Source: Streptomyces sp. ALI-76-A (GTDB taxonomy: Bacteria > Actinomycetota > Actinomycetes > Streptomycetales > Streptomycetaceae). From it: a stretch of DNA of 64,000 nucleotides. The notes under the pieces were generated by a model. It was not told the origin of the DNA. It saw nothing but the letters and a program-made list of their open reading frames with translations, and ran no database searches. Below are positions 62,561 through 63,787 of the stretch, in pieces (the stretch's first letter is position 1; the number at the start of each line of letters is the position of its first letter). Both the position numbers and the translations under genes were made by a program. Location: positions 6,200,001-6,264,000 of the forward strand of contig NZ_JASVWB010000002.1 in assembly GCF_030287445.1 (NCBI RefSeq), given 5' to 3'.

Positions 62561-62830
62561 AAGGCGTTCTGCCCTGTCGACGTCTGGCGGCTGCCCCCGC
62601 CGGTCCTCCACGGCCGCCCCCTCGCGGTTCCCTGTGCGGGGGACGACGAACCGGCGCTGTCCGTCGTCCGGCGACTCGTGCGCGACCACGGCTGCCGCCC
62701 GCTGAACGCCGGGGGACCGGACCGCGCCCCGCTGCTGGAGGCGACGGCGGCGCTGCTGACGGGGCTGTGCGTGGGGCAGGGGGCGGACGCACAGGCGATC
62801 GCACCGCCCGTGGAGTTCGCGGGACCGCGG
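62561..62830 (+). pseudogene. C-terminal fragment of a NAD(P)-binding (F420-reductase-like) protein
   Basis: In one frame (62561-62830) the sequence reads AFCPVDVWRLPPPVLHGRPL, AVPCAGDDEPALSVVRRLVR, CRPLNAGG and LLEATAALLTGL, then ADAQAIAPP. This resembles the C-terminal half of NAD(P)-binding, F420H2:NADP reductase-like proteins. The N-terminal Rossmann half is missing: upstream lies the sigma factor gene stop. The 3' end runs straight into the palindromic element at 62831. The family call is from recollection; it is a decayed piece, not a gene. Confidence 0.45.
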
Positions 62831-62999
62831 CTAGTGCCGCGGCAGGCAACGTTCGCCCGTCAAGGAGCGGCGTCCGGTGCGTGCTCTCGGCGTGCCGGCC
62901 GGAAGCCCTCGTACTGGATGTACTTGGGCTTTCGGCCGGTGCGGCGAGAGGGCGTGCCGGGCGTCGCGACGGGGCGAACGTTGCCTGCCACGGCACTAG
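62831..62999. mobile_element. 169-bp palindromic MITE-like element
   Basis: The outer 28 bases on each side are inverted repeats with one mismatch (62831-62858 and 62972-62999), each starting CTAGTGCCG-C/T-GGCAGGCAA. Inside, further complementary segments (CTCTCGGCG with CGGCGAGAG; GGCCGGAAGCCC with GGGCTTTCGGCC) make almost the whole element one palindrome around an apex at about 62912-62922. There is no transposase frame. CTAG at both ends could be a target duplication. It lies between a pseudogene fragment and the GDPD gene, whose stop codon is inside the right end. Confidence 0.75.
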
Positions 63000-63787
63000 C
63001 TCCCGCCCTGGGCGCCGCGTCCGGTGATTCCGGTGTGCCCCGTGGCCACGGGGCGGTTCGCGGGCAGGGGCCGGCCGGTGCCGGTGCCGCCGCTGTTGTC
63101 GCAGTCGCTGTCGCGCAGGGCGCACAGGGTGTCGATGCGGTTGGTGGTGATCGAGTCGACGCCCAGGGCGAGCAGGCGGCGCATGGAGCGGCGGGTGTCG
63201 GGGGTCCAGACGGAGAGCAGGTGGCCGTCGGCGTGCACGCGGTCGGCGAGGGCGCGGTCCACCAGCCCGAAGCGGTAGTTGAGCCAGCGCGGCCGTACCG
63301 CCGCCAGCAACGCGGGCCGGGGCGGCGCCAGCGTCGTCCAGGTCAGCGCGATCTCCGCGGCCGCGTCGGCGGCGCGGACCGCGAGCATGGCCGGGGCGCC
63401 CGCGCAGTAGTAGACGCGGTCCTGTGCCCCGCGCTCGCGGACGACGTCCACGATCCGGCGGGCCACCCGCACGTCGGGGGTGCCCGGCAGGTCGAGCATC
63501 ACCCGGCTGCCGTCGGTCGCGTCGAGGGCCTCCGCGAGCGTCGGCACCCTGCCGTCCGTGAGCCCGCGCACCTCGTCGGCGGACAGCGCGAGCAGCGGCC
63601 GGTCGTGCTCCCACAGCCGCTTCAACGTGTGGTCGTGCAGCAGGACGGGGACGCCGTCCCGGGTGAGCCGTACGTCGATCTCGACCGCGTCCGCGCCCCG
63701 CCGGAGCGCGGAACGCAGTGAGTCGACGGTGTTCTCACGGACCCGGTAGGGGTCGCCGCGGTGGGCCACGGCGGTCAGCTTCTGCAT
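62996..63787 (-). CDS. Glycerophosphodiester phosphodiesterase
   Basis: The 263-residue GDPD-fold enzyme has the catalytic HRG (AHRGDPYRVRENTV), the metal site EIDVRLT and HDHTL; it hydrolyses glycerophosphodiesters to glycerol-3-phosphate. There is no signal peptide, so it is cytoplasmic. On the minus strand CACAAT lies at -12 to -7 of the ATG at 63787, suggesting a leaderless transcript. The C-terminus ends at a TAG that belongs to the MITE-like element, so the last residues (about GAQGGS) may be altered. Confidence 0.85.
   Translation of the reverse strand: MQKLTAVAHRGDPYRVRENTVDSLRSALRRGADAVEIDVRLTRDGVPVLLHDHTLKRLWEHDRPLLALSADEVRGLTDGRVPTLAEALDATDGSRVMLDLPGTPDVRVARRIVDVVRERGAQDRVYYCAGAPAMLAVRAADAAAEIALTWTTLAPPRPALLAAVRPRWLNYRFGLVDRALADRVHADGHLLSVWTPDTRRSMRRLLALGVDSITTNRIDTLCALRDSDCDNSGGTGTGRPLPANRPVATGHTGITGRGAQGGS

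Follow-up and report, generated by a model that had tools for sequence, protein, structure and literature searches.

The stretch of DNA analysed here, which we call the window, comprises 64,000 nt of the genome of Streptomyces sp. ALI-76-A (contig NZ_JASVWB010000002.1, positions 6,200,001 to 6,264,000), and at 62831..62999 it holds a 169-bp palindrome that is, with near certainty, a miniature inverted-repeat transposable element (MITE). There is very little doubt that it transposes in the manner of IS630, and we are almost as confident that it has an internal core in common with elements whose ends have been exchanged. The explanation as a whole, a non-autonomous IS630-family MITE that targets the TA in CTAG and whose core is conserved through exchange of the ends, is a probable one. 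Its mobility is that of an ordinary IS630 MITE; what is new is the anatomy, a conserved and apparently RNA-selected core with swapped ends.

The terminal inverted repeats lie at 62831..62858 (plus strand) and 62972..62999 (minus strand), and the element has the target CTAG at both ends, at 62831..62834, with the duplicated TA inside, and at 62996..62999. The arms 62830-62858 and 62972-63000, of 29 nt each, are 97% complementary, and the DNA fold of the 62820-63010 strand reaches −93.9 kcal/mol against a mean of −50.6 (sd 3.4) for dinucleotide shuffles (z −12.8), with none of 200 shuffles folding as well. Between the repeats is a hairpin core at 62867..62968 (element positions 37-138), and within it a central GTAC-TGGAT-GTAC hairpin (62911..62923) whose loop GG is invariant across 35 diverse aligned cores; element, core and central hairpin are assigned to the plus strand, on which the core has pairs of G·U and not of A·C. 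An earlier note, made from the sequence alone, had described a near-complete palindrome, terminal repeats with one mismatch and small palindromes inside them, CTAG at each end and no transposase, all of which we confirm: the element is far below 600 bp in length, carries no transposase gene, and the listed open reading frames merely read through it. Rfam gave no family at gathering score (best mir-3158, 28.7 bits on the plus and 18.9 on the minus strand, where 97 are needed).

The own genome of the strain (9.69 Mb in 5 contigs) contains at least 40 places at 98-100% identity to the element, with 37 matching along the full 169 positions (40 of 168 candidates scored), and about fifty recent copies altogether. 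The terminal repeat occurs at 126 sites and the core centre at 56 (both at up to 3 mismatches), with no hits for the reversed terminal repeat or for the control of the core centre. Forty-nine fetched 169-bp copies show on average 2.8 differences from their consensus, including one outlier with 26. A match at E 0.001 was found in 58 of 100 genomes (own included); the best E fell to 1e-20 or below in 20 of 60 other Streptomyces genomes and 0 of 39 genomes outside the genus, as counted by hand from the table. The exact core pattern is present in 2 of 396 genomes sampled across the phylum, 12 of them from the genus with our own included; these two are our own and one more of the genus, the latter with one control hit. 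Relatives of the element reside on Embleya and Kitasatospora plasmids, while phage records gave no match to it at E 1e-5 and viral contigs no exact match to a 23-base pattern of the terminal repeat. Shortened elements with the same ends also exist in the genome: a 107-bp form without 62 bp between short direct repeats at four places (L251, L252, L254 and L255), and elements of about 60 bp at L253 and L285. We rejected a composite transposon at C2:4232690-4234129, where two copies merely flank a 1.1-kb stretch with a read-through gene that is probably murQ-like.

Evidence of insertion comes from loci related to that of the neighbouring GDPD gene (the best 80 of 280, from named genomes, of which 11, picked by their flanks, were read closely). 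In four genomes, represented by L176 (S. cyaneus), L192, L193 and L247, the flanks join in just one CTAG, within which lies the TAG stop codon of the GDPD gene; in the window there is CTAG at both ends, so that insertion has left a separate CTAG to each of the two neighbour genes. Duplication of CTAG and duplication of TA alone would leave the same sequence. L196 resembles these loci by eye, L178 has CTAA at the GDPD junction and no element there, and L172, L232 and L240 have different spacers or a junction without CTAG. Similarity to the element (blastn E 1e-5) was seen, among the best 80 of 280 loci, only in L199. The earlier note had held that a single-copy sequence always present at this site would not be a mobile element; the palindrome is multi-copy, its site is empty in four genomes and CTAG/TA is duplicated, and the identification as a MITE is borne out. 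By eye, two other strains (L186 and L199) carry different palindromic elements at the identical GDPD stop codon, that of L199 containing a partial core.

An IS630-family element of the strain's own genome, whose terminal repeat is nearly identical, probably serves as helper. IS630-type (DDE_3) transposases mark 19 places in the genome, and one of these, L164 (C2:1174703), is a 1566-bp insertion sequence (IS) flanked by CTAG, both ends of which read CTAGTGCCGCATCAGGCAACGTTCGCCC, sharing 26 of 28 letters with the left and 25 of 28 with the right terminal repeat of the MITE. It resembles the MITE in its ends and flanks, and differs in its length and in encoding a transposase of 379 aa, which has Pfam DDE_3 and helix-turn-helix domains and scores 156.9 bits with NCBIfam transpos_IS630 (cut-off 100). 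The element (L164:1354-2921; G000:C2 near 1174703) also encodes a glyoxalase-like passenger protein of 110 aa. At least 80% of the L164-type unit is held by 6 of 138 matching plasmid records (named plasmids), and three of four plasmids checked have a plain version of about 1.24 kb. One plasmid of another strain, NZ_CP109481, carries both a 1237-bp version, with 1 mismatch in 27 to the MITE end on the right and 3 mismatches on the left, and a MITE at 97.6% identity; these mismatch figures are those of L401. A preference of IS630 for the TA in CTAG is given in the title of Tenzen and Ohtsubo 1991, a work cited among the references of PMC2170065, and the abstract of PMC2170065 states that ISY100 duplicates TA. 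Shared ends, target and empty sites together lead us to infer mobilisation in trans. The earlier note had proposed an unknown transposase; the terminal repeat that the MITE has in common with an IS allows it to be named as one of the IS630 family. An IS630/Tc1-mariner family transposase, supplied by a full IS with near-identical ends, would excise the MITE, which would then re-insert at a TA within CTAG, giving CTAG at both ends. Own-genome transposases of the DDE_Tnp_1 type (PF01609) were rejected as helpers, as 0 of 29 loci had the ends of the 169-bp element on an IS; two of the 29 carry ends of another terminus group.

The core is also found in relatives with other ends, and cores that are 94-98% identical sit between mutually unlike termini, with both ends differing together. 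Ninety-two distinct elements were examined for paired ends; 12 had none by rule, 28 further own-genome copies were omitted, 3 fell in no recognised group and 49 entered a tree of the cores. On this tree, which rests on about 100 sites and on seven terminus groups set by hand (one of them a single element), the terminus group changes 15 times, compared with a mean of 27.7 for shuffled labels (minimum 23 in 500 shuffles). Core identity reaches 98% when an IS630-type group is compared with an IS5-like one, 97% for A with B and 96% for A with F; in the first two of these pairs the second copy has one decayed outer end. A case with clean ends is L027 (group B), whose core is 96% identical to that of the window. 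In another genome, G134, 96 of 102 core positions are identical to the window's and both ends read CTAGGGCGTGTTGCGAAAGT; these agree at 20 of 20 bases with one end of the own-genome elements L099/L100, the other end of which has 2 mismatches in 20. NCBIfam assigns the L100 transposase to the IS5 family (130 bits against a cut-off of 110). The L099/L100 element also has an open reading frame of 149 aa beside the transposase, and its termini recur on the core-bearing MITE of G134 (L384). Among the fetched loci there was no IS partner for groups B, C, F and G and two strings of group D; the other D strings and group H met only IS ends at 3-4 mismatches in 18, and E/K was matched at 1-3. As the core recurs between seven terminus groups, IS630-like and IS5-like included, it has been kept through exchange of the ends.

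Within the core, the pairing itself is conserved. Across the 35 diverse cores the paired cells make up 94.9%, and changes on both sides are seen in 23 pairs and 105 cells, against 11.5 and 28.0 in shuffles; none of 500 shuffles attains any of five covariation measures, figures that are not probabilities because the core sequences are related. Read on the plus strand, 80 distinct cores have 624 cells with G·U against 29 with A·C, and another 93 that do not pair, with eight positions at which most of the 80 have G·U. Parsimony infers 48 changes from Watson-Crick pairs to G·U and 18 to A·C (p 0.0003 if the changes are independent). Recent changes in the own genome include 11 C>T and 9 G>A, with no clear strand bias in C>T, so that biased C-to-T change is not an obvious cause of the G·U excess. 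Folding both strands, as the earlier note had proposed, makes the plus strand the more stable in 80 of 80 cores with RNA parameters, and equally with DNA parameters. Because the core covaries, wobbles almost solely by G·U and shows no clear C>T bias, a strand-specific RNA-like fold is favoured; the note's alternative of a structured RNA or DNA element thus also finds support, and selection of the core at the RNA level is, on balance, the reading we prefer. A coding core was rejected: the three codon positions change about equally often (230, 262 and 268), and 9 of the 80 cores have a net indel that changes the frame. A CsrA-like reading of the GGA in the loop was considered, though no search was made for the CsrA motif.

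The same observations have to be set against other explanations of the mobility and of the core. Since numerous IS701-like (PF13546) elements of the genus start with CTAG, a transposase of that family might be thought to move the element, but their ends read CTAGTAGTGCTT or CTAGTACTCCAGC and match those of the MITE in none of 42 loci tested (6 own, 30 from the genus and 6 on plasmids); we consider this very improbable and rejected IS701 as the helper. It is improbable, too, that the core is a passive ancestral filler and that its various ends are slowly diverged descendants of a single ancestor, never exchanged between transposase families. The clustering of terminus groups on the core tree beyond that of shuffled labels, and the CTAG with which most termini start, are what such descent would lead one to expect; against it, cores of 94-98% identity are bounded by dissimilar ends, both of which differ together, and the ends match ISs of two families.

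A rather unlikely, though more serious, competitor keeps the core at the DNA level only: the palindrome would extrude or become single-stranded in replication, repair between the arms would preserve complementarity, and the mismatches would merely prevent the palindrome's lethality. Arm-to-arm repair would likewise produce changes on both sides. Moreover, among the cores on contig C2 (the 8 on other contigs left out) 36 of 48 point towards dnaA at 4.63 Mb (p 0.0007), an orientation that by our reasoning places the weaker-folding strand on the lagging template. Such repair should, however, remove G·T mismatches, yet G·U occupies eight positions in most of the 80 cores and A·C is rare; nor is the bias evident, by eye, in the places listed for G012 and G038, where the position of oriC is not established. 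In a GTACTCGGGC-type variant (on C2, the sequence preceded by further bases), the 10 listed copies below 3.4 Mb are all on the plus strand.

Several points weigh against our preferred interpretation of an IS630-family MITE with an RNA-selected core. Transposition itself was not observed, the terminus groups are hand-set, and the tree used for the counts has about 100 sites. The four 107-bp and two ~60-bp derivatives in the own genome hold part of the core or none, and the core is therefore not strictly required for mobility. Parsimony also counts 35 changes from Watson-Crick pairs to other mismatches; the 10 T>C against 4 A>G among own-genome changes leave some strand asymmetry; and recent changes to G·U (6) and A·C (4) are too few to speak for present selection. 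The dnaA-ward orientation would fit an effect on DNA, and in tandem gene contexts the core runs along the genes 11 times and opposed to them 6 times, no clear tie to transcription.

The genes beside the element relate it to stop codons. To its left is the surviving 3' part of an F420-dependent NADP oxidoreductase-like gene (62569..62834, plus strand), whose TAG stop lies in the left CTAG; to its right is the GDPD gene (PF03009; 62996..63787, minus strand, start codon picked by eye), whose stop is the minus-strand TAG of the right CTAG, as the earlier note had seen. The left neighbour had been called a pseudogene fragment, with reason: in S. cyaneus a longer gene (F420_oxidored, PF03807), convergent with GDPD, ends in the same CTAG on the opposite strand, and the window copy lacks most of that length. 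CTAG occurs 13 times in the window, two being the element's own, where base composition predicts about 166. A coding TAG stop underlies 46 of 57 fetched copies but only 4 of the window's 11 other CTAG sites (p 0.005; copies with both edges placed, gene calls frame-based), and 52 of the 57 copies have kept an intact CTAG at each end. In the annotated genome of S. cadmiisoli a gene terminates inside the right CTAG of a copy. Where genes were called on both sides (45 copies), 27 pairs are convergent, 17 tandem and 1 divergent. As CTAG is rare in the window and frequently overlaps TAG stops, most copies sit exactly at gene stops, and with CTAG duplicated on insertion each neighbour gene regains a stop. 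At L140:993-1005 an IS701-type element adjoins an IS630-type terminal repeat at a common CTAG, so that the CTAG inside the ends of the MITE may itself be a target.

Palindromes of the REP/RAYT system, which is served by a Y1 transposase, are not known to have a terminal inverted repeat with target duplication. Our element has terminal inverted repeats and CTAG/TA duplication and differs from them in this. RUP of Streptococcus pneumoniae is 107 bp long. PMC3049150 presents it as a short multi-copy MITE that can fold as RNA, with mobilisation by IS630-Spn1 proposed. The Streptomyces element resembles RUP in these respects, trans mobilisation by an IS630 element being hypothesised for both, and differs as a GC-rich nested palindrome with its habit for CTAG and stop codons and a core in common with other MITE families. 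The BOX elements of S. pneumoniae and S. suis are similarly modular, and those of S. suis have the same boxB modules enclosed by either of two end sets, A/C or E/F (PMC3049150); ours, unlike BOX, has a single compact hairpin core between termini that match ISs of two transposase families. SPRITE of S. pneumoniae is likewise a hairpin repeat enriched near gene 3' ends, for which the authors suggest co-option as a terminator; as described in PMC3049150 it has neither IS ends that match nor a target duplication that is established, whereas the Streptomyces element has ends that match ISs. RUP, SPRITE and BOX are the closest precedents we found, and among the papers listed by literature searches, in which subscription literature was poorly covered, none describes such an element in Streptomyces.

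Siting at stop codons without gene breakage would explain how a dense genome tolerates dozens of copies. We tentatively suggest that the core acts as a terminator or in transcript processing: on read-through of a gene, a core hairpin at its 3' end would stop the transcript or have it processed (RNase III-type), so that insertions at the ends of genes could be tolerated. The usual view of a bacterial MITE is that it derives from a single IS by internal deletion. In this case conservation is stronger in the interior than at the ends, and the interior is common to MITEs that apparently use transposases of two families, which suggests selection on the interior and makes a role for a MITE core testable. 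It is possible, if speculative, that selfishness resides in the ~102-bp core, as a hairpin of strand-specific RNA that survives in Streptomyces genomes by taking on new ends from any IS630- or IS5-family transposon that targets CTAG and is active. If so, this RNA module would outlast the vehicles that carry it and would benefit them, or their hosts, at the 3' ends of genes.
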